Virus record (IMG/VR): IMGVR_UViG_3300024999_000141
Coordinates: 1-53,648 of that record
Reading direction: 5' to 3' (one strand)
DNA from: a virus
DNA length: 53,648 bases
Shown: positions 550 to 14,141 of the stretch, one piece after another
Numbering within the stretch: position 1 is the stretch's first letter
How the letters are laid out: every line of letters begins with the position of its first letter
Position numbers and translations under genes: made by a program
The notes under the pieces: model-generated
Database searches by the model: none
Seen by the model: only the letters and a program-made list of their open reading frames with translations
What the model was told of the DNA's origin: nothing

Positions 550-848
550 CAGGCTGCCCTCCGTTCGTACCGCCGGCCGAGCACCCACCCGCCGGGCCGA
601 TGTTCGACGCGCAGCTGCCGCCCGTCGCTGCCCCGGTGACGCCTCTCGGTCCCGACCTGGCGCTCGACCAGGCCGCCCCGCTCCAGCTCGCGCAGGATAC
701 CGCCGAGGACGCAGCGCCAGCGGCTGCTGCAGCGCGCCCGCAGGTCGAGCTGCGCCTCGAGGTGGCGCGCCTCCACCGGGAGGCCGTCGCAGGCCTGCCG
801 CAGGGCCACGGCATCGAGGACCTCGCCGGCAGTGAGGGGGTGGTGCAT
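549..848 (-). CDS. Small winged-helix-like protein
   Basis: A 99-residue basic protein. The arrangement (TAGEVLDAVALRQACDGL, a helix RCVLGGILRELERGGLVERQV, then a beta-rich VEHRPGGWVLGRRY) looks like a winged helix-turn-helix, in which the 'LRELERGGLVER' segment is typical of a recognition helix and wing. It sits between the helicase loader and the VRR-NUC gene and is coupled to both by TGATG junctions. A DNA-binding replication accessory or regulator is an inference only. Confidence 0.6.
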   Translation of the reverse strand: MHHPLTAGEVLDAVALRQACDGLPVEARHLEAQLDLRARCSSRWRCVLGGILRELERGGLVERQVGTERRHRGSDGRQLRVEHRPGGWVLGRRYERRAA

Positions 849-1702
849 CAGTCCTCGCCCCTGTCGTCCGGAGTCTGCTCCGACTGCATCTCGGCCCGCA
901 TCTGCTCCGCCTTCGCCTCGTCGTACGTGCCGCAGCGGCGGTCGCCGGGGTACCAGCAGCGGACGTCCAGCCCCGTCAGCGCCTCGAGGCGGGAGAGCAC
1001 GCGCCCCGGCTTCACCGGGTCGGTGGTCATCCAGGCCTTGCGGGCGAAGGCCAGCCCGGCGGCCCGGTCCAGGTTCGCCGTGACGATAACCGGCCGCCTG
1101 GCGTTCCACCGGGCGTCAAGCACCGCCAGCAGCTCGTCGAGCTCCTGCCGGTTGGGCGTGTGGGCCAGCACGTCGTCGAGCAGCAAGGCCTGCACCGAGC
1201 TCAGCGCACCGACGGCCTTCTGGTGCTCGGCCAGCTGGCGGGAGAAGTGCAGCGCCGCCAGCGTCGAGCACATCCGTTGCAGCGAGCAGGCAGCCACGCT
1301 GACCCCCTGGTCGAGCAGCCTGCGCCCCAGCCGCCCCAGGATGGTCGACTTGCCTGAGCCGCAGTCGCCGTGCATCCACGCCCCCGGCCCGCCCGGGGTC
1401 CAGGTGCGGGCCCAGAAGATCGCCTCGCTGCTCCACTCGTCGGCCTTGATCTCGGGCTGCTCCAACAGCGCGGCGTCGTGCACCCGCCCCAGCCGCTGCT
1501 GCAGGTCCACCAGCTCGGCGGCGCGCTCCCGCTGGCGCTTCTCGTCCTCGGCCGCCGCCAGGCCGGCGTCGCAGGCAGCGCACACCCACCGCTGCGGGGG
1601 CTCCAGGGGCCCGCTGCAGCGGTAGCAGCGGCTCCTGGGCGCAGCGAAGCGGCTCAGGCCGATCTCGGCGGCGAGAAGGGTGGGCGTGGCGTCGACGGAC
1701 AT
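848..1702 (-). CDS. DnaC-like helicase loader ATPase with N-terminal zinc finger
   Basis: This 284-residue AAA+ protein would load the replicative helicase at the phage origin, the role of lambda P or DnaC. Walker A is GDCGSGKST (residues 112-120), Walker B is ALLLDDV (172-178), and PVIVTANLD fits sensor I. The N-terminus has a CxxC...CxxC zinc knuckle (Cys26, 29, 41, 44), as in primosomal loaders that bind ssDNA or helicase. It lies directly downstream of the initiator-like gene with the iteron array, the same initiator-loader order as lambda O-P. Family assignment is firm; the partner helicase is not in the window. Confidence 0.88.
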   Translation of the reverse strand: MSVDATPTLLAAEIGLSRFAAPRSRCYRCSGPLEPPQRWVCAACDAGLAAAEDEKRQRERAAELVDLQQRLGRVHDAALLEQPEIKADEWSSEAIFWARTWTPGGPGAWMHGDCGSGKSTILGRLGRRLLDQGVSVAACSLQRMCSTLAALHFSRQLAEHQKAVGALSSVQALLLDDVLAHTPNRQELDELLAVLDARWNARRPVIVTANLDRAAGLAFARKAWMTTDPVKPGRVLSRLEALTGLDVRCWYPGDRRCGTYDEAKAEQMRAEMQSEQTPDDRGED

Positions 1703-1720: not shown

Positions 1721-2920
1721 TCAGAACGTCTCGAACTCGGATCCGGCAGGCGGCGTAAGCCGGGGCGGGGAACGCTGCGATGGGCCGGGGCGCGGCACGG
1801 GCGATGGCTGCGGGGTGCCGTTGTGGCCGTCCCGCAGCCGGTTGGCCGTGCGGATGCCCATGCCCCGGCCGTAGGTCAGCGTGTCGTGCTCGACCTGGCC
1901 CGCCTCGTCGGGCGTCAGACCGGTCAGGTCCACGCCGTCCAGCCATGGCCTGTCCCCGGCCGTAGCATCCCCCACCCGGTCGTACCGGCCGTTCTCGATG
2001 CGCTCCCGGCCATGCCGGCTGAGCACCCAGCCGATGTCGGGGGGCCATTTGGTCCGGAAGAACTCCGAGGCCGCCACCCGCCGCAGCAGCGCCTCGGTCT
2101 CCCGCAGGTCGCCGGCGGCTTTGGCGACCAGCGCCGCGGTCGGCGCCGACCACGCCCCGGGCTTCACGTCGGGAAACTTCAGCGGCACGAGGATGCGCCG
2201 CCAGAGCTCCACAACCGGGGCAGCCCGGGCGAGCTGCTCGGCCTCGCTCGGGACGGCCCGCTTGCGCCGCGGCGAAGGCTCGGCAACCGGGTCGCTCTCC
2301 GGCGGTCGGGTGGCCTGTTGGCCCAATGGGTCAGCCGACGGGAGATCGGGTTCACCCCCCTCGGGCAACGAGGGGGGAGGGGGGGTGTTCTTGTCCTGTC
2401 CTGTATTGTCCTGTCCTGTCCTGTCAGTCGTTACTCGCGTTACGGCGCGTTGCTCGCCGTTACTCGCGTTACGTAACGTTACGGGCGCGTTACTCGGCGT
2501 TACGTCGACGGGCGCTGCGTCACCGTCCGTTACGTCACGGCTCGTAACGGCTCGTAACGGCGGCGCCACCTCCGGCCGCTTCTTGTCGCGGTAGGCCTGC
2601 TGGCGCGTCGCGTTCGTCGAGTCCTCCTGGTACTTGGTCCACCCGGGAAGCCGCACGCCGTCCTCGGTCACGACGACCAACCCAGCGGTGACCAGCGCCT
2701 GGAGCGCCTCTTCGAAGATCCCGGAAAACTGCCCGGGGTCGAACAGCGCGCGCCGGGCGAGGTGCTTGCCGGTGACGTGCTTGGCCGACACCGCGCCGCC
2801 GGCGGCCTGCTCCTTGGCGATCCGCAGCAGCGTAGTGAAGGCCACCAGCCCCCACGGCCCGGCGTCGAGCACGTCGGGGTGGGTGTCGATCGACGAATCC
2901 AGCCTGACCCAGCCAGCCAT
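1721..2920 (-). CDS. Replication initiator-like protein (lambda O position)
   Basis: A 399-residue protein. Residues 1-110 (MAGWVRLDSSIDTHPD..., then GLVVVTEDGVRLPGW) look like the N-terminal winged helix of phage replisome-organiser/DnaD-type proteins. Residues about 115-200 are a low-complexity Thr/Asp/Asn-rich linker whose DNA is the CGTTAC iteron array. Residues 210-330 are helical (ELWRRILVPLKFP...) and the tail is Pro-rich. The ATG at 2920 overlaps the upstream TGA. An origin inside the initiator gene next to a DnaC-like loader copies the lambda O/ori/P design. The initiator role rests on context and weak N-terminal similarity. Confidence 0.7.
   Translation of the reverse strand: MAGWVRLDSSIDTHPDVLDAGPWGLVAFTTLLRIAKEQAAGGAVSAKHVTGKHLARRALFDPGQFSGIFEEALQALVTAGLVVVTEDGVRLPGWTKYQEDSTNATRQQAYRDKKRPEVAPPLRAVTSRDVTDGDAAPVDVTPSNAPVTLRNASNGEQRAVTRVTTDRTGQDNTGQDKNTPPPPSLPEGGEPDLPSADPLGQQATRPPESDPVAEPSPRRKRAVPSEAEQLARAAPVVELWRRILVPLKFPDVKPGAWSAPTAALVAKAAGDLRETEALLRRVAASEFFRTKWPPDIGWVLSRHGRERIENGRYDRVGDATAGDRPWLDGVDLTGLTPDEAGQVEHDTLTYGRGMGIRTANRLRDGHNGTPQPSPVPRPGPSQRSPPRLTPPAGSEFETF
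2392..2559. other. Candidate replication origin: phased CGTTAC iterons and TGTCC tandem repeat
   Basis: Inside the initiator gene, CGTTAC occurs in the plus orientation at 2429, 2438, 2458, 2467, 2477, 2488, 2498 and 2528, and as GTAACG at 2473, 2544 and 2554. That is eleven copies in 131 bp, with spacings mostly of 9-11 or about 20 bases (helical phasing). Many belong to a unit like GCGTTACTCG. A seven-unit tandem 5-mer (TGTCC/TGTAT/TGTCA, 2392-2426) abuts one side. The encoded protein is a low-complexity linker here, so the DNA rather than the peptide appears to be under selection. Confidence 0.65.
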
Positions 2921-3360
2921 CAGCGGTTCTCCTCTGTTCGGTTGCGTCCGGCGCGCCGAGCCTCGCCGCAGGGGTCGCAGAACATCCGCAGGTGATGCAC
3001 CGCCTGCGGGCACTGGTAGGTTGCGCCGCACTCGGTGCAGACCTGATCGACGAGGGTGGTCATCCGATGCCGCCGCCAGCAGGCGAGCTCCGCGTAGAGG
3101 TTGCACTCGCGCCGGACACGGCGGCCGCAGCCGCAGCGGCAGAAGGGCAGGGGCACGCCCTCGCCTTCGCCCTCGGCGCGCTGGCGTCCCGCCCCGCAGT
3201 CGACGCACTTCACCGTGTCCGCCCGCCCCACGCCCAGCCAGAAATTGGCCTCGCCGCAGCGGCCCCTCCAGCGCGCGACGCAGGCCCTCGGGGTCAGGCG
3301 AGCGCCGTAGGGCTCGCAGACCACGAGCGGGAGCGGAGTGGCGGGGTGGGCCTGATTCAC
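2920..3360 (-). CDS. Multi-zinc-ribbon protein
   Basis: 146 residues with at least four Cys clusters: KCVDCG, FCRCGCGRRVRREC, CTECGATYQC and CDPCGEARRAG, plus His residues near the last two. These should bind two or three zinc ions. The CxCGC-x2-V-R knuckle recurs in the gene at 5466-7085. The GTG at 3360 overlaps the TGA of the upstream methyltransferase (GTGA); a second GTG lies one codon upstream. No enzymatic motif is visible; DNA or RNA binding is likely but unproven. Confidence 0.65.
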   Translation of the reverse strand: MNQAHPATPLPLVVCEPYGARLTPRACVARWRGRCGEANFWLGVGRADTVKCVDCGAGRQRAEGEGEGVPLPFCRCGCGRRVRRECNLYAELACWRRHRMTTLVDQVCTECGATYQCPQAVHHLRMFCDPCGEARRAGRNRTEENR

Positions 3361-4022
3361 CACTCCACCTCCAGCAGCTCCATGCGCGTCGTCTCCACGG
3401 GCACCGCCGCGGCCCACTGCCACCATCCCCAGACCCGTCCGTCCGTCCCGTTGTCGCCGGAGAACGAGGGGCGCCTCGGGCTCGGCCGGTACCACTGCGG
3501 CTTGTGCTCGCCCCACCAGGCCGCCCGCTCCGAGGTCATGAGCATGCCGGCGTGCCCCAGCGCGTGGACCACGCCGCCGCGACTGGCCAGGGCGAGGCAG
3601 AGCGTCACCCACTCGATCCAGACGTGGCGGTCGCCGTTCTTCTTGGGCGGGTTGGTCAGCACGACGTCCCAACGCCGGCCGGCCTCCAGTTGCGCAGGCC
3701 CCCACTCGAGGAAGTCCGCCTCGACGCGCTCCCAGCGCTCCGGCAGCGCAGCGCAGCGGTCGTGGTGCAGCTCGACGCAGGTGATCCGGGGAAGGGCGAG
3801 GCCCCGCTCCGTGGTGAGCACCTCCGCCTCGTCAGCCAGCACGCCCAGCCCGGCGCCGGCGTCGAGTACGCTGCAGGCGCCGAGGTTGTACGGCACCGCG
3901 GCGGGCGCGCGCAGGATGGCCCGGGCCAGCCAAGGGGGCGTCGGCCAGAAGTCGAGGTCGAGACGCCGATCCGTGGTGCGATCGAACTCCGGCAGCAGGC
4001 CGAGCTGGGCGGCGCAGGTCAT
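3357..4022 (-). CDS. N6-adenine-type DNA methyltransferase
   Basis: A 221-residue class I SAM-dependent methyltransferase. Motif I is SVLDAGAGLGVLADEA (about residues 51-66), the acidic ribose contact is CVELHHDRC (82-90), and the catalytic loop is LTNPPKKN (122-129), an NPPY-type motif with Lys in place of the aromatic residue. The DFWPTPPWLARAIL opening is typical of phage-encoded adenine methyltransferases. It is the first of three adenine-type methyltransferases in this early operon and probably protects phage DNA from host restriction. The missing NPP-aromatic residue leaves activity open. Confidence 0.78.
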   Translation of the reverse strand: MTCAAQLGLLPEFDRTTDRRLDLDFWPTPPWLARAILRAPAAVPYNLGACSVLDAGAGLGVLADEAEVLTTERGLALPRITCVELHHDRCAALPERWERVEADFLEWGPAQLEAGRRWDVVLTNPPKKNGDRHVWIEWVTLCLALASRGGVVHALGHAGMLMTSERAAWWGEHKPQWYRPSPRRPSFSGDNGTDGRVWGWWQWAAAVPVETTRMELLEVEW

Positions 4023-5465: not shown

Positions 5466-7085
5466 TCAGGCCGCGGCCGGCAGGCCGAGCAGCACCCGGG
5501 CGCTCTGGATCGAGTACAGGGCGCAGCGCTGCAGGTACGCCGAGGGCAGGTGCTCGGGGTCGGGGAGCTTGTACGCTTCCGCTGAGTCGGGGGAGATCGG
5601 GAGGCCGTGGCGCAGGCGCTCGCACTCCGCCTTGTAGCCGTCGGCAGTGCCGCGGGCGCGGGCCAGGTCGATGCGGCCGAGGTCGCGCTCCTTGCCCAGG
5701 CGCTCGATGAAGGCAGAGAAGGTCTCGCCCTCCTCGGCGCCGAGTCGCCGGCGGAGGTCCAGGGCTTTGTCCTGCTGATCCTGGAGCACGGCGGCGAGGT
5801 CGTTGCGCTCCGCCAGCCGCTCCTCGGCCAGAGCGGTGGCCTCTGCCACGTGGGCCCGCCCTTCGCTCACTTCGGCCCGCAGGGCGGCCGCCTCCCGCAC
5901 CTGGTCATCGAAGCGCTCGACCAGCTCCTCCCGAGACGCCCTCACTGCGGCCAGCTCCTCCCGCAGCTGCCGCACCTCGGCGGCGACCGCAGGCGCCACC
6001 TCGGCGTCCACGGTCGGCGCCCGCCCCATCTGCAGCCGCCCGCAGGCCTTCGCCCACGGCTCCAGGTCGGGGTGCCCGGCCGTGCCGAGGTGCTGCTCGA
6101 TCAGAATGGCCAGCACGTGGCCCGCGGCGAGGACCTCCTCCACTGGGTCGCGCCGGTCCCGCTGCAGCAGCTCGGCGACGCTCTGGCGCGCTGCGGCCAG
6201 CTCCTCGCCGATGGGGGTGAACGGACCGCCGGCCAAGTCGGCGCCGCCGCGCTCCGGCGGCACGGGCACCAGCTCCGGATCACCTCCGGTGCGCGGTCCA
6301 TCCTGGCCGAGTTCAACCGACCTCGCCTCGGCTTCGCAGCCACCGCAGAAGGAGGTGCCCTCGTCACCGGACACGACCGCGGTGCTCGGGTGCCCGCAGC
6401 CCATCGGCTCGGCGGTGACCGGCTGCTCGGCGGGCGCAGCGGCGGCCGCCCGGCCCTGAAACTTCGTCGGCTTGTTCCGCGTGCGCCCGGCCCAGTAGTC
6501 GCGGCCGCAGCGGGCGGTGGCGTACTTGGTCGGTCCGCCCCGTCCGCTCGTCGCCCGCACCGGCTTGCCGCACCCGCACTGGCAGAGGGGGCGCGTCTGG
6601 GGCGCAGCGCTCAAGGTGGTCTCGCTCATGGTCGCCTCCACTTCGCCCTCGCTCTCGTTGCAGTCGTTGTTCGCTTCAGCCTCACCCACGGCATATTTTC
6701 CGGCATCTTCTGCAGACCGATCGCCCTCGCCCTCGCCCTCGCCCTCGCCCTCGCCCTCGCGGCGAGTGGAGATCACGCCCTCGATGCACGAGAGCTCCCA
6801 GCTGCGATCGCTGCCGAGCTCGCACACGCCCTCTCCACTGCCCGGGCGCCCCTCCCAGCAGAGCGGGTCTCCGTCGCGGCGCGACGAGGCGCAGGCCCGC
6901 AGGCGGAGGTGGCCGCGGCCGCGCCCGCAGAGCACGCGGCGGTTGGGGTCGCCGGCAGCCAGGCACCGCTGGCCCTCGCCGCGGCTCCAGCCCCCGTCGC
7001 TCAGCAGGTCGAGGACGGCCTGGAGTGCAGCGATGTCGTCGGAAGTGACCGGCTCCTGGACATCATCACGGAGGACGGTGCTCAT
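5466..7085 (-). CDS. Zinc-finger and coiled-coil protein with repetitive linker
   Basis: 539 codons in one open frame. Residues 1-107 have scattered Cys. Residues 110-122 are a Gly-Glu repeat encoded by a GGCGAG-type hexanucleotide array (about 6727-6762). Residues 153-200 carry a CQCGCGKPV...CGRDYW zinc knuckle like that in the 2920-3360 protein. Residues 350-500 are a long Glu/Arg/Ala-rich coiled coil. An internal ATG at 6629 has a good GGAGG site upstream, so a shorter 387-residue product is plausible. The first ATG overlaps the GIY-YIG stop. Function unknown; it resembles structural or scaffold-like phage early proteins. Confidence 0.6.
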   Translation of the reverse strand: MSTVLRDDVQEPVTSDDIAALQAVLDLLSDGGWSRGEGQRCLAAGDPNRRVLCGRGRGHLRLRACASSRRDGDPLCWEGRPGSGEGVCELGSDRSWELSCIEGVISTRREGEGEGEGEGEGDRSAEDAGKYAVGEAEANNDCNESEGEVEATMSETTLSAAPQTRPLCQCGCGKPVRATSGRGGPTKYATARCGRDYWAGRTRNKPTKFQGRAAAAAPAEQPVTAEPMGCGHPSTAVVSGDEGTSFCGGCEAEARSVELGQDGPRTGGDPELVPVPPERGGADLAGGPFTPIGEELAAARQSVAELLQRDRRDPVEEVLAAGHVLAILIEQHLGTAGHPDLEPWAKACGRLQMGRAPTVDAEVAPAVAAEVRQLREELAAVRASREELVERFDDQVREAAALRAEVSEGRAHVAEATALAEERLAERNDLAAVLQDQQDKALDLRRRLGAEEGETFSAFIERLGKERDLGRIDLARARGTADGYKAECERLRHGLPISPDSAEAYKLPDPEHLPSAYLQRCALYSIQSARVLLGLPAAA

Positions 7086-7978
7086 TCTTCGCCCGCCTTC
7101 CGCTGCGCACGTTTTGCCTCAGAAATCTTTGCTCGCGTCTCCGGGCTGATTGGATGACCCCGATGAGACTTGCTCATATTTTTCCGGGCCTCAGGGCTCG
7201 CGACACGGCCTCGACTGGCCTCGCCGACTCTCGCCCTGGTTTCCGGGTCGGCCATCCGAGAGCGAGTCGCTTCTGCCATCTTGGCCAAGGCTTCGGGGCT
7301 GAAAACGCGTCGGCGACAAGCCTCCGCTGCCTTCCGCCGCTCCTCCGGATCGGCCATCCGTTTCCGCATGGACTCAGCAACCCTTGCCTTCGTCTCAGGG
7401 CTACGATTTCGACAGGCTTCAGCGAGTTTGGCCCGCGTTTCGGCACTGCGATTCCGGTTTGCCTCAGCAACCTTTGCCTTCGTTTGTGGATCTCTCACGG
7501 ATTGCGCATGTCTCTCCCGCTGCTCTGGGCTACGATTTCGGGAAGCTGCAGACAACTTCGCCCTGGTTTCCGCGCTGACAGCATGTCCAGGCGCACCATC
7601 CCCTCCGTCGGTCAGGTTGGTGAGCGAGCAACCAATGGCCCGGAAATGCCTGATCCATGCTTGCTCGTTCTTCTCCCATCCCCGCCCGGCTGATGCTGGA
7701 TCGATGATCTCCATGACCGGCGTCATCCCATTAGCGAGCAACTGGCGAATCCACCGTGCTTTGTGGGTGTTTTCCCCTCGACGAGCAGATCCCATATGGG
7801 CTTGCAGTCTGATCTCTGGCTTTCGCCTCGTCACACCGGCATACCGAATCCGCTGGATCGGATCGCTCATCCTGGGGTCGCAGAGCACATAGATGACCCA
7901 CTCGGGACTGGCATTGAGCCCAAGCTCGACCTGTTTCTCATCCCTGACCGGGAAACGTGCGGATCGCTTGCGACTCAT
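7082..7978 (-). CDS. GIY-YIG homing endonuclease with NUMOD3 repeats
   Basis: 298 residues. Residues 27-125 form a GIY-YIG nuclease domain (VIYVLCDP...IRYAGVTRRK as the two half-motifs, with a later acidic residue in WEKNEQAWI). Residues 133-298 hold a run of NUMOD3-type DNA-binding motifs of the form SPETRAKLAEA and close variants. This is the usual layout of free-standing phage homing endonucleases. Its base composition is visibly lower in GC than the flanking genes, a sign of recent arrival. It sits between two early genes with 4-base overlaps on both sides, so it is co-transcribed and does not disrupt the operon. Confidence 0.9.
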   Translation of the reverse strand: MSRKRSARFPVRDEKQVELGLNASPEWVIYVLCDPRMSDPIQRIRYAGVTRRKPEIRLQAHMGSARRGENTHKARWIRQLLANGMTPVMEIIDPASAGRGWEKNEQAWIRHFRAIGCSLTNLTDGGDGAPGHAVSAETRAKLSAASRNRSPEQRERHAQSVRDPQTKAKVAEANRNRSAETRAKLAEACRNRSPETKARVAESMRKRMADPEERRKAAEACRRRVFSPEALAKMAEATRSRMADPETRARVGEASRGRVASPEARKNMSKSHRGHPISPETRAKISEAKRAQRKAGEE

Positions 7979-8103: not shown

Positions 8104-8705
8104 TGGGTGACCTCGTTGCCCCAGGAATCCCACCCCGCTCTGTCGCTGCGGGCGAACAGCTCGAGGCGCGGCCCCGGGCTGACTTGCTCGATCAGCGAGT
8201 AGCTCTGGTCGGGCTTGGCGCTGTGCCGGGTGCGGGGGGCGAAGAAGACCGACGGCGGACGCCTCTCCGGCGGGGGCACCAGCGCCTGGCCGCGTGTCGA
8301 GAGCAACAGCAGCTCGTGAGCCCCGCGGCCGTACTGCCCGAGGCCGATCTGCAGGGCGTCCCGGGCTACCTCGCAGGGGGTGACCCCCATCGGAGAAACA
8401 TCCCGCAGCTTCACCCAGACGAAGGTCCGGATGTAGTGGAAGCCCAACTGGTCGATCAGCCAGAGGCCGTCGGTCAGGAAGTTGTCGGTGACCCACATCC
8501 AGAGGTGCGCCCCGGCGGGGTCGGGCGTGAACCGGCCGCTGCCGAGGATCACGCCGGGCAGGTCCTTGGTCTTCACGAGGGGGTAGTGCCGCTGAGCGCC
8601 GCGCACGCACTTGCCGCCGCCCCGCTCCTCCCAGGGGGGATCCATGCTGATGCAGCGGTAGAGCTGCCCGTCCGGCACGAAGAGGTCAGGCTGGACCGCG
8701 GTCAC
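8100..8705 (-). CDS. MT-A70 family adenine methyltransferase
   Basis: 201 residues with the family's catalytic DPPW motif (residues 22-25, CISMDPPWEERGGG) and the later SAM-binding strands HLWMWVTDNFL and FHYIRTFVWVKL. MT-A70 proteins in phages methylate adenine N6 in DNA; eukaryotic relatives act on mRNA. The GTG start overlaps the stop of the D12 methyltransferase gene (GTGA). It is the second adenine methyltransferase of the cluster, and a role in evading restriction is the likeliest use. Confidence 0.85.
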   Translation of the reverse strand: MTAVQPDLFVPDGQLYRCISMDPPWEERGGGKCVRGAQRHYPLVKTKDLPGVILGSGRFTPDPAGAHLWMWVTDNFLTDGLWLIDQLGFHYIRTFVWVKLRDVSPMGVTPCEVARDALQIGLGQYGRGAHELLLLSTRGQALVPPPERRPPSVFFAPRTRHSAKPDQSYSLIEQVSPGPRLELFARSDRAGWDSWGNEVTQ

Positions 8706-10090
8706 GAGAGCACCTCGGCCAGCGTCGTCTGGCGCAGCGGGGCGCTGACCCGGACAGCGGAGGGCCTGTTCATCGTCAGGAACTCGCGGTGGCGCTGCCA
8801 ATCGGCACTGTGGCGGGTCCGAGCCGAGGTGATCTCGACGTGGTGCCACCCGGGAAGGGGCAGCGGCTCCGCCTCGCTGACGCACACGAGGGCGCCGGCG
8901 TCGGCCCAGGCGCGGGCCACCTCGAGCACCCGGGCTCGAGGGAGGTCGTATCCGTACCCGGTGCGTCCCTCGTAAGGCGGATCGCAGTAGACGACGGTCC
9001 CGTCCGGCACACGGTCGGGCGGCTGCAGCGCGGTTGCGTCTTGGCGCAGCGCGGCAACCAGGTCGACCGGTCCTCGGGTCAGGGCATCGACGCGCTCTGC
9101 CAGCGTCGCCGGCGTGATCTGACACTGTCCCGGGCGGTCCTGGTTGTCTGCCCGCCTCCAGTCATCTCCGGCACCTCGCCAGCTGTTGCCGCGGCGGAAG
9201 AGCCAGGCGGCGATTCTCTCGACCCGCCCGGCCACGTCGCCGAGCTGCGGGGGCTTGTTGCCGCGCTGCAGCACCTTCGTCGGGGGGCTGGCCGGGTTCG
9301 GGTCGCCCCCCATCCGCCACTCGCCATTCTCGACCACGACAGGCACCGAGGAGGGCGAGTGCGCCTGCAGCGTCAGCCAGGTGGCCAGCCAGTCGACCCG
9401 CTCAGCGATGGTCGCCTGATGAACGCCCCTGCCGGGCCCCGTCTGCGCCGCCGCCTGCGTCCGTCCGGTAGCGTGGTCCGAGCAGACCAGGCGCTCGCCG
9501 TCATGCCCGACCTGTACGCCGTTGCAGACGCGCCCCTGCAGCACGAGCCAGGAAGCGATCGCTTCGATTCGATCAGCGACCGTGCCGGTGTTGCGCATGC
9601 CGCGGTGGTCGGGGTGCTCGCCGCGCTGCACGGCGGGCTTGCCCCGTCCGGAGCGCTTCTCCGTCATCACCCAACCGGCCGCTCCGGGCCATGCCGGGGT
9701 GTTGTTGCAGGTCCTGCCCTGCACCCAGAGGTAAGCGGCCACTTCTCCCGGAGCCCAGATCGTCGAGTCCGCCGGCGCCGTCGCGGCCAGCCGCTCCCAG
9801 AGCGCTCGCGGGTCTTCTCCTGCCCAGCTGCGCAGGACCTTCGCTACCTGCTGGCTGCAGGTCGGGTCGAGCAGGGAGCCCCAGACGTGCCCCCACGGTC
9901 CTGCGTCGACCAACACGACCGCCTCTGCTCCCTGCCCGGGCTGCAGGCCCATGGCGCCGAGGATGGCCCCGGCGAGCGAGGTCTTGGCGCCCATGAAGGA
10001 GATGGGCGGGCGGCTGATGCCGAGCAGCCGCAGTCCGACCGCTGCCGAACCGGCACAGAGCTCGACGTAGAGCGGGCAGCGGACGGTCAT
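8702..10090 (-). CDS. D12-class (Dam-like) adenine methyltransferase with repeat insertion
   Basis: 462 residues. The N-terminus has the SAM site (YVELCAGSAAVGLRLLG, residues 8-24) and ISFMGAKTSLAGAIL, equivalent to the 'GxK' motif of Dam enzymes. Motif IV is YCDPPYEGRTGYGY (DPPY at 370-373). Between them lie about 230 residues with several copies of a helix of the form VAxRVExIAxWLxLQGR (starting near 115, 171, 226, 283 and 327), absent from ordinary Dam proteins. These may form an expanded recognition or regulatory domain. It is coupled to the MT-A70 gene. Confidence 0.82.
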   Translation of the reverse strand: MTVRCPLYVELCAGSAAVGLRLLGISRPPISFMGAKTSLAGAILGAMGLQPGQGAEAVVLVDAGPWGHVWGSLLDPTCSQQVAKVLRSWAGEDPRALWERLAATAPADSTIWAPGEVAAYLWVQGRTCNNTPAWPGAAGWVMTEKRSGRGKPAVQRGEHPDHRGMRNTGTVADRIEAIASWLVLQGRVCNGVQVGHDGERLVCSDHATGRTQAAAQTGPGRGVHQATIAERVDWLATWLTLQAHSPSSVPVVVENGEWRMGGDPNPASPPTKVLQRGNKPPQLGDVAGRVERIAAWLFRRGNSWRGAGDDWRRADNQDRPGQCQITPATLAERVDALTRGPVDLVAALRQDATALQPPDRVPDGTVVYCDPPYEGRTGYGYDLPRARVLEVARAWADAGALVCVSEAEPLPLPGWHHVEITSARTRHSADWQRHREFLTMNRPSAVRVSAPLRQTTLAEVLS

Positions 10091-12868: not shown

Positions 12869-13369
12869 GTGTCAAAGGTGCTCGACGACGAGGAAATCCA
12901 GCGGCTGATTGACGAGCCGAAGCGGGCCACGGCCAAGCCAAGGCGCAGGGAGAAGGCTGGCCATATCGAGATCGACTGCGAGGTGGTCGGCGACTCGGAG
13001 AACACCTACGTCGTCTGGGCCCGCCAAAACATCCGTCTGGACGAGGACTTCTCCGCCGGACTGCGGTTGAGGCGGAGAGGCGACGAGGACGTCATCCTTC
13101 GCCGCTACAACGGCAGTAGCCACTCTCACCCGAATCACATCGAGGACGAGCACTTGCCGCCGGTGTGCCACGTGCACGAAGCGACCCAGCGGTATTGGGC
13201 GCGCCGGGGCAGAGCAGATGGTTACGCTCGCATTGCCACCAGCTATACTGACGTCCGCGGAGCAGTCCGGGCGCTGCTCTCGGATTGCGCGGTCTCGGGG
13301 ATAGCCCCCGAACTGCTGATGCCGACGGCATCTCAGGGTGTACTGCCGCTGGGTAGAGAAAATGGATGA
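12869..13369 (+). CDS. DUF6978-like protein, first gene of a two-gene cassette
   Basis: 166 residues starting at GTG 12869 behind a CGGAGG site. Recognisable stretches are IEIDCEVVGDSENTYVVWAR, FSAGLRLRRRGDEDVILRRY, then NGSSHSHPNHIEDEH, CHVHEATQRYWARRGRADGY, and a C-terminal helix. This resembles the DUF6978 group found beside DUF1828/1829 genes. The His-rich NGSSHSHPNH segment may be a metal site. It overlaps the next gene by 8 bases. The position beside cI is typical for lysogenic-conversion or phage-exclusion genes. Function is not established. Confidence 0.65.
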   Translation: MSKVLDDEEIQRLIDEPKRATAKPRRREKAGHIEIDCEVVGDSENTYVVWARQNIRLDEDFSAGLRLRRRGDEDVILRRYNGSSHSHPNHIEDEHLPPVCHVHEATQRYWARRGRADGYARIATSYTDVRGAVRALLSDCAVSGIAPELLMPTASQGVLPLGRENG

Positions 13370-14141
13370 GAGGTTCACTCAGGCGCTCCGGTCCTTGTTG
13401 CCATGCGCCAAGCTTCGGCCGCTGAAAGGAGATTGGCTGGCAATCGATTCACTTTTCACCTTTCCAGATGGGGATACTCTGGTGATTCACGCCAAGGAAA
13501 CAGCCGGAGGTGGCGTCCTGTTGTCTGACCGAGGCCACACCATGATGCAACTCAGTTACATCATGGATGTCGATCGAATCAGGGAGGGACGACGCAGTCA
13601 CTTGCTGGACATGATCTTAGCCAATCACGGAGTTACTGAAGATGGCGGGGAACTGACACTATCTTGTCCTCTACCGCAGGTTATGGTGAGTTTCTTCTCC
13701 TTCGGGCAGGCGCTAACTCGGGTCCATGACGTTGGATTTGCCAGCAAGGCACATGTTGAGTCCAATTTCTACAATGATCTGCAATCAGTTGTAGAGGGAA
13801 TGGTGAACGAATCCAAGTACCAGCGGGATTACTACGTCGAAGAGATTGAACACGGAGAAATGTACCCGATTGACTACAAGATCGAGGGGAAAGCACCAGG
13901 TACGCCGTTGTTTGTGTTCGGAATACCGCACAAGGACAAGGCCCGTCTTGCCACCGTGGTGCTGGAGCACTTGCTCAGGGCCGGGGTTTCGTTCGAGTCG
14001 TTGCTGGTGTTCGCCAACCAGGAAGAGCTCCCCCGACAGGACCTCGCCCGACTCTCCAACGTCGGCGGAGAGCAAGTATCTTCGCTGTCCGCCTACGAGG
14101 ACCTCAAGCGCAAGATCGGGAGGCGTGCGTTGCTCGACTGA
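13362..14141 (+). CDS. DUF1828/DUF1829 domain protein
   Basis: 259 residues from ATG 13362. The N-terminal half (SLFTFPDGDTLVIHAKETAG, LLSDRGHTMMQLSYIMDV, ILANHGVTEDGGELTLSC) matches DUF1828. The second half (FYNDLQSVVEGMVNES, FVFGIPHKDKARLATVVLEH, LLVFANQEELPRQDLARL) matches DUF1829. Base composition is strikingly lower in GC than the phage average, with many AT-ending codons, which indicates recent acquisition. With its partner it forms a cargo unit expressed from the lysogenic strand; a defence or toxin-antitoxin role is inferred from the position only. Confidence 0.75.
   Translation: MDERFTQALRSLLPCAKLRPLKGDWLAIDSLFTFPDGDTLVIHAKETAGGGVLLSDRGHTMMQLSYIMDVDRIREGRRSHLLDMILANHGVTEDGGELTLSCPLPQVMVSFFSFGQALTRVHDVGFASKAHVESNFYNDLQSVVEGMVNESKYQRDYYVEEIEHGEMYPIDYKIEGKAPGTPLFVFGIPHKDKARLATVVLEHLLRAGVSFESLLVFANQEELPRQDLARLSNVGGEQVSSLSAYEDLKRKIGRRALLD

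Follow-up and report, generated by a model that had tools for sequence, protein, structure and literature searches.

A probable replication origin inside the initiator gene of a temperate phage, and a basic helix that covaries with the adjoining iterons

Results

The initiator locus and its neighbourhood

The window, by which we mean the whole 53.6-kb virus record analysed here (71% GC), carries genes for a phage portal, a protease, a tail sheath, a tape measure protein, a baseplate and an integrase, and is therefore assigned to a contractile-tailed temperate phage. Its minus strand encodes a replication initiator whose parts follow one another in the order winged-helix (wHTH) domain, putative reader helix, linker containing an iteron array and a pentanucleotide tract, and C-terminal domain. 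Directly downstream, on the same strand, lies the gene of a DnaC-like helicase loader (Table 1). The loader also matches DnaI/IstB-like AAA models; it has no close relatives in IMG/VR, and its relatives among phages are distant ones. Scanning the window for Rfam families and tRNAs returned no matches. The GC skew, which had been proposed earlier as a check, makes no sharp turn at the array and is uninformative as evidence for an origin.

Table 1. Features of the initiator locus, with positions in the window.
Feature	Position	Strand	Description	Evidence
Replication initiator gene	1721..2920	-	399 aa (MAGWVRLDSS...)	open frame and translation
N-terminal winged-helix domain	2627..2920	-	residues 1-98	AF2 pLDDT 92.7, pTM 0.79
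Putative reader helix	2567..2620	-	residues 101-118 (STNATRQQAYRDKKRPEV), class RQxxYR	predicted helix; peptide class recurs beside CGTNAC arrays
Iteron array	2429..2559	both orientations	11 CGTTAC/GTAACG and 2 CGTCAC/GTGACG variants, in all three frames	
Pentanucleotide tract	2392..2425	(ACAGG)n on the coding strand (minus), (TGTCC)n on plus	34 bp, 6.8 copies	
DnaC-like helicase loader gene	848..1702	-	284 aa, Walker A GDCGSGKST	phrog_50 (E=2e-12), phrog_3277

Elsewhere in the window, a perfect (TCGCCC)6.7 tract of period 6 (6721-6760) lies outside the initiator, inside a minus-strand gene (7085-5466) that encodes GEGEGEGEG there. The gene at 7082-7978, where the local GC content is lower (61%), holds a 45-bp repeat in about 2.5 copies and resembles a homing endonuclease of the GIY-YIG type in which NUMOD-like motifs are repeated. 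An MT-A70-type adenine methyltransferase gene (8105-8744; PF05063, E=1.5e-14) is accompanied by methyltransferase-like genes at 3360-4022 and 8705-10090, and the kilobase of lowest GC (13001-14000, 57% vs 71%) is possibly a recent acquisition.

The iteron array is constrained at the DNA level

The exact hexamer CGTTAC/GTAACG occurs 14 times in the window, with 11 occurrences gathered in 131 bp of the initiator linker (starting at 2429, 2438, 2458, 2467, 2473, 2477, 2488, 2498, 2528, 2544 and 2554) and three in the other 53.5 kb; the variant CGTNAC sites at 2518 and 2533 bring the array to 13. When the same 55 residues were re-encoded with synonymous codons according to the phage's own codon usage, 20,000 draws gave a mean of 0.42 sites and a maximum of 5, against the 11 observed. 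The codon GTA, rare in the other genes (7 of 415 valines elsewhere), is used for five of the eight valines of the linker. The array is constrained at the DNA level, beyond synonymous coding.

A preliminary description of this DNA had reported eleven sites in 131 bp, a TGTCC tandem flanking them, a low-complexity linker as the protein encoded across them and a DnaC-like gene next downstream, and on each of these points our analysis agrees with it. The site spacings, which it had placed near multiples of the helical repeat, are 9, 20, 9, 6, 4, 11, 10, 30, 16 and 10 bp, and their helical phasing is not significant in a Rayleigh test at 10.5 bp (R=0.43, p ~0.11). The initiator helix that precedes the array and the recurrence of the TGTCC tract were both absent from that description.

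The initiator protein and its winged-helix domain

The PHROG matches of the initiator are weak, the best being phrog_9474 ('replication initiation protein', E=5.7e-4). The protein matches no Pfam family at E<=0.1, hence neither PF07120 (DUF1376, YdaU) nor PF09681 (Phage_rep_org_N), and no NCBIfam family; BLASTP found no sequence similarity to lambda O (best E=1.2), and close relatives were found neither in INPHARED nor in the GTDB genomes. Its single IMG/VR match, L002, is false, being a structural protein that shares GWTKYQED by chance.

Residues 1-119 were modelled with AF2 from a 49-sequence alignment; without an alignment the N-terminal part reached a pLDDT of 45, and the alignment-based model was used instead. 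This model is confident and shows a winged-helix domain, with residues 101-118 forming a helix of their own at the C-terminal end. The aligned homologues come from an iterated search and are 14-30% identical to the window protein, and because the alignment is so diverse the fold is firmer than exact orthology. VIA-align gave Z scores of ~7-8, which are common, to CRP/LexA wHTH, DnaD N-domain and RepA initiator entries, and Foldseek found no match in the PDB at E<=0.001. The N-domain is thus predicted, from the model, to have a winged-helix fold, as in wHTH replication initiators.

A basic helix accompanies CGTNAC arrays in many phages

The basic helix TNATRQQAYRDKKR is encoded directly before the array, and its pairing with CGTNAC is that of its class. 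As the initiator has no close relatives, its parts were searched for separately. The scan for CGTWACG arrays alone yielded at least 119 loci, and many of the arrays lie in the linkers of initiators with differing N-domains and contig GC. Among the matches listed, the motif is found in phages of ~33% to 71% GC, the arrays within large open frames are mostly in initiator-like genes, and a reader-type peptide stands at most 60 aa away in 45 of 119 array loci, compared with 1.9% of background stretches. A basic peptide of the form NAxRQxxYRxR or RxRTxAATxAR tends to precede the array.

The peptide-first survey comprised 73 loci chosen solely by the back-translated AERQR.YR[DE], in which all 6-mers of the next 200 bp were ranked, none of them named beforehand. 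The top words were CGTTAC (106 vs 4.8 expected), CGTAAC (101 vs 4.3) and CGTCAC (102 vs 11.7), and AGAAGA-type purine words rank just below them. For the window-like variant RQQAYR[DE], scanned in IMG/VR as RQQAYR[DE]xK, CGTTAC was again the top word (19 vs 0.07 in four loci, one of them already known). At least two sites follow downstream, in the same frame, in 26 of the 62 distinct AERQR.YR loci, and in several others the array is upstream of the peptide; about half of the distinct loci are without an array nearby, some of these being unrelated small proteins, and the loci without an array may be unrelated. Every stop-free combination of phase and orientation, all five, is used across the peptide loci.

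The helix class that goes with CGTNACG is found on DUF1376 N-domains, on Phage_rep_org_N domains and on proteins with no detectable wHTH N-domain; L064, of the same helix class as the window, matches Phage_rep_org_N at 1.7e-53. In L203 (3700-4700) a CGTWACG array with CCGGCAATCAGGC repeats occupies an intergenic stretch directly before a small reader protein and a gene for VapE/RepB-primase; the locus might be an origin that has neither a wHTH initiator nor a DnaC loader. Small RQxxYR-helix proteins with 26-29 CGTNACG site matches downstream also occur in L170 (2614-3036) and L199; the reader and array of L170 lie within a structural-gene cluster, outside any replication locus.

We take the peptide NAERQRRYRER to be loosely like the NxxAQxxFR of the Yap/Pap1 basic region, as a lead only. 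The basic helix of these fungal bZIP proteins recognises TTAC-type sites (PMC3865217). Unlike the window protein they possess a leucine zipper, and they share no sequence match with it and belong to a different biology. Membership of the bZIP family was rejected: leucine heptads are missing after the helix (RPEVAPPLRAVTSRDVT...), and the reader fragment has no bZIP match in the PDB.

Helix and iteron change together within one N-domain family

The family set consisted of 80 IMG/VR loci with initiators chosen solely by a DUF1376-like N-domain. In this family, a change in the peptide behind the domain goes with a change in the repeat downstream of it: CGTNACG pairs with RTxAATxAR or RQxxYR (class A), GAAACGC with RLxxWR (class B), CACGGCA or ATTGCCG with RAAKRW, and CGTGACA with ERKRxER. 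The classes had been drawn by eye on this first set, and they were therefore pre-registered and then tested on held-out loci, namely 54 non-redundant prophage loci from GTDB genomes. Every class proved richest in its own motif. CGTNACG averaged 4.07 in class A against ~0.3 (n=14) and GAAACGC 3.71 in class B against ~0 (n=7), each with a permutation p <5e-5; the values were 4 for class C (n=1, p 0.019) and 4.5 for class D (n=2, p 0.036). An independent scan with the peptide AERLR.WR, some loci of which overlap the family set, returned GAAACG as the top word (17 vs 0.54). Locus L313 is contrary, in that CGTNAC sites accompany its class B peptide.

The L347-L393 set (e.g. L351, L367 and L388) holds further pairs of helix and repeat outside the tested classes, namely TECARIKKHNQRH with GGGACA/TGTCCC, DRxRKxN with GGAATTCC/CGGAAA and RERSxxxNxxRWG with GATCCC/GCATCCC.

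Helix and array are neighbours, so linked co-inheritance could yield covariation without contact, and such linkage between adjacent segments is the explanation that competes most with direct reading. Winged-helix domains are the usual iteron readers in plasmid and phage initiators, and the same is thought of lambda O; the origin could then be real with the wHTH domain reading the iterons and the basic helix being a linker that travels with the array. We hold this to be unlikely, since similar N-domains do not predict similar iterons when the similarity of the readers is allowed for: in a partial Mantel analysis of 106 pooled loci, iteron and reader remain correlated given the N-domain (r=0.24, p=0.0005), whereas iteron and N-domain do not given the reader (r=0.03, p=0.26). 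Moreover, N-domains that are 80-88% identical but bear different helices go with different repeats (e.g. L376/L389), and one helix class keeps to CGTNACG across DUF1376, Phage_rep_org_N and no-wHTH proteins. Reading of the array by the basic helix is the account that we prefer.

A strand-asymmetric tract recurs beside the arrays

The (ACAGG)n tract follows the array on the coding strand (2425-2392) and is strand-asymmetric; its GC content is 53%, compared with 73% in the rest of the initiator gene, so that it is lower in GC without being A+T-rich. In the N-domain family, 73 of 108 linkers (68%) have, after the array, a tract of at least 14 bp that repeats perfectly with period 5 or 6; among control windows the figure is 3.4%. 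The repeat unit is ACAGGG in 34, AGAGGG in 10, ACAGG in 7, ACGGG in 6 and AAGGG in 3, with others besides, and in 66 of the 73 tracts more than 70% of the coding strand is purine. A rule that the tract is always purine-rich on the coding strand was discarded: the orientation is reversed in L015, and repeats of CCGAC type occur in the actinophages Malibo and Phinally. The scan for the pentanucleotide only gave 32 IMG/VR loci, in many of which, though not all, the tract lies in the linker of an initiator-like gene; the repeats ahead of it are often CGTNAC and sometimes another sequence.

The tract is present with all the main helix classes, and its reader is therefore probably something other than the helix. 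A reading of the tract as a primase start (CTG on the template strand) was rejected because the AGAGGG, ACGGG and AAGGG units contain no CTG. It may serve in opening the strands or in letting the helicase enter, and the recurrent purine tract would be a second element of the origin.

Comparison with known systems

The preliminary description had called the locus a lambda-style origin. The layout agrees with this, since the initiator gene of the lambda ori-O-P region also holds its iterons, behind the segment for the N-terminal DNA-binding part, and the loader gene comes next. The initiator and the iterons do not: lambda has four 18-bp iterons, whereas the window has 13 sites of 6-7 bp in both orientations, and the window initiator is without detectable similarity to lambda O. 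The window further differs in its (ACAGG)n tract and in the reader-type basic helix ahead of the iterons, which lambda O lacks. The window is lambda-like in layout and outside the lambda family by initiator or iterons. The more general part of that description, an origin within the initiator gene followed by a loader, is favoured by the anatomy and by many relatives with a similar layout.

The rep gene of Lactococcus phage Tuc2009, annotated as 'contains origin of replication', has GCAACCAAATG repeats and then a AGGATAGGATAGG tract of period 5/6, in the window's order within the gene. Unlike the window, it has another peptide and another repeat, a low-GC host, and a next gene annotated as topoisomerase. 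In the Rac prophage of E. coli K-12, ydaU encodes a DUF1376 domain and the basic peptide AAGKASVQARRSRK, followed by TGTTCAA repeats and a GATACAGATAAAGATC stretch, and the putative ATP-binding gene ydaV adjoins ydaU as the loader adjoins the window initiator. Rac belongs to another class of peptide and repeat, and Pfam, in contrast to the window case, recognises its DUF1376 N-domain. The ydaU linker (L397, 7120-8730), with its TGTTCAA array and a period-6-like stretch before ydaV, is a candidate origin within a laboratory strain.

Microbacterium phage Blett encodes a RepA-like initiator, a helicase loader and DnaB in a row (gp42-gp43-gp44). Its initiator belongs to phrog_9474, the weak match of the window protein, and has the peptide WRQRQRKARG followed by CGTGAC sites; compared with the window, the sites are fewer and no ACAGG tract was seen. 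Among mycobacteriophages, a prophage RepA is necessary and sufficient for autonomous replication, and the authors of that study suspected the origin to be within or next to repA, with no iterons identified (PMC7157519). Roseburia phage Shimadzu has the initiator-DnaC order with other repeats. The rep gene of TP901-1, annotated as an experimental replication protein, shows no obvious array of short iterons, and the Epsilon15 initiator shows no clear CGTNAC array.

Discussion

Function of the array and the factor that binds it

Iteron arrays often serve control besides initiation, and the initiator could bind the array for autoregulation or for partition, as at a centromere-like site, without the array being the origin. 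The small reader proteins of L170 and L199, with their many downstream matches, would fit such a role, and that of L170 has its place in a structural cluster. We nevertheless regard this as improbable, since most of the arrays in large open frames, among the matches listed, are within initiator-like genes, the gene directly after it is a loader gene in the window as well as in K-12 Rac and phage Blett, the L203 array is beside a VapE/primase gene, and the tract recurs after the array. A host factor, rather than the initiator, might bind CGTNACG; the span of phages from ~33% to 71% GC in which the motif occurs, among the matches listed, could suggest a conserved host target, but other helices carry other repeats within one N-domain family, and we consider this explanation very improbable. 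Finally, we give practically no credence to the idea that the repeats just mirror the residues (VT, RN, SN) of a disordered linker, although the linker is of low complexity and resembles peptides that recur in phage initiators: in the window this cause is ruled out by the synonymous null (11 vs 0.42) and is opposed by the rare GTA codons, the use of three frames and both orientations, the intergenic array of L203 and the use of all stop-free frame combinations across phages.

A model of initiation

In our judgement, the phage's origin of replication probably lies at 2392-2559, within the initiator gene, with the basic helix as the likely reader of the array. Initiation could be pictured as follows, starting from an array under DNA-level constraint, a predicted helix that covaries with the iteron across phages, a tract and a loader gene. 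The basic helix of the initiator (class RQxxYR), beside the wHTH domain, would read the CGTNAC sites, and several initiators would bind the 13-site array of 131 bp cooperatively. Strain beside the resulting filament would open the adjoining strand-asymmetric, lower-GC (ACAGG)n tract, to which the DnaC-like loader from the neighbouring gene would deliver the replicative helicase.

The same self-contained cassette of reader, target array and tract is found with many N-terminal domains. The window represents one case of a module that is widespread and consists of reader helix, array, strand-asymmetric tract and loader, for which we infer DNA binding and origin activity. Across the hundreds of phages surveyed, the spelling of the iteron tracks the helix that precedes it, which suggests, as far as sequences can tell, a simple protein-DNA code for origins. 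We lean, with some reserve, towards the broader proposal that an exchangeable helix of ~15 residues sets a 6-7-bp iteron by a learnable code and that the adjoining, widespread ACAGG[G]-type tract is the site of opening or of helicase entry; with the helix encoded next to its own array, and then the tract, origin specificity could therefore be switched in one recombination event.

Significance

That an origin can lie inside the gene of its initiator has been clear since lambda; to our knowledge, origins, their sites and the residues reading these sites have been assigned in only a minority of phages. What is new here is the basic helix encoded directly before the array, together with an iteron sequence that covaries with it across phages, and this covariation rule raises the interest above that of a single candidate origin. 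The titles and abstracts listed contained no earlier description of the motif, of DUF1376, of YdaU/YdaV or of pentanucleotide tracts in phage origins; subscription journals are thinly covered among them, which makes this negative weak evidence as far as those journals go.

If the proposed scheme is true, it would account for the odd VT, RN, TGQDR and GQGQ linkers of phage initiators. If the helix reads the iteron, the sequence and specificity of the origin would become predictable from the protein in a large share of temperate phages, and the pairing would amount to a compact code of protein-DNA recognition and open a way to small replicons for hosts that are hard to work with.
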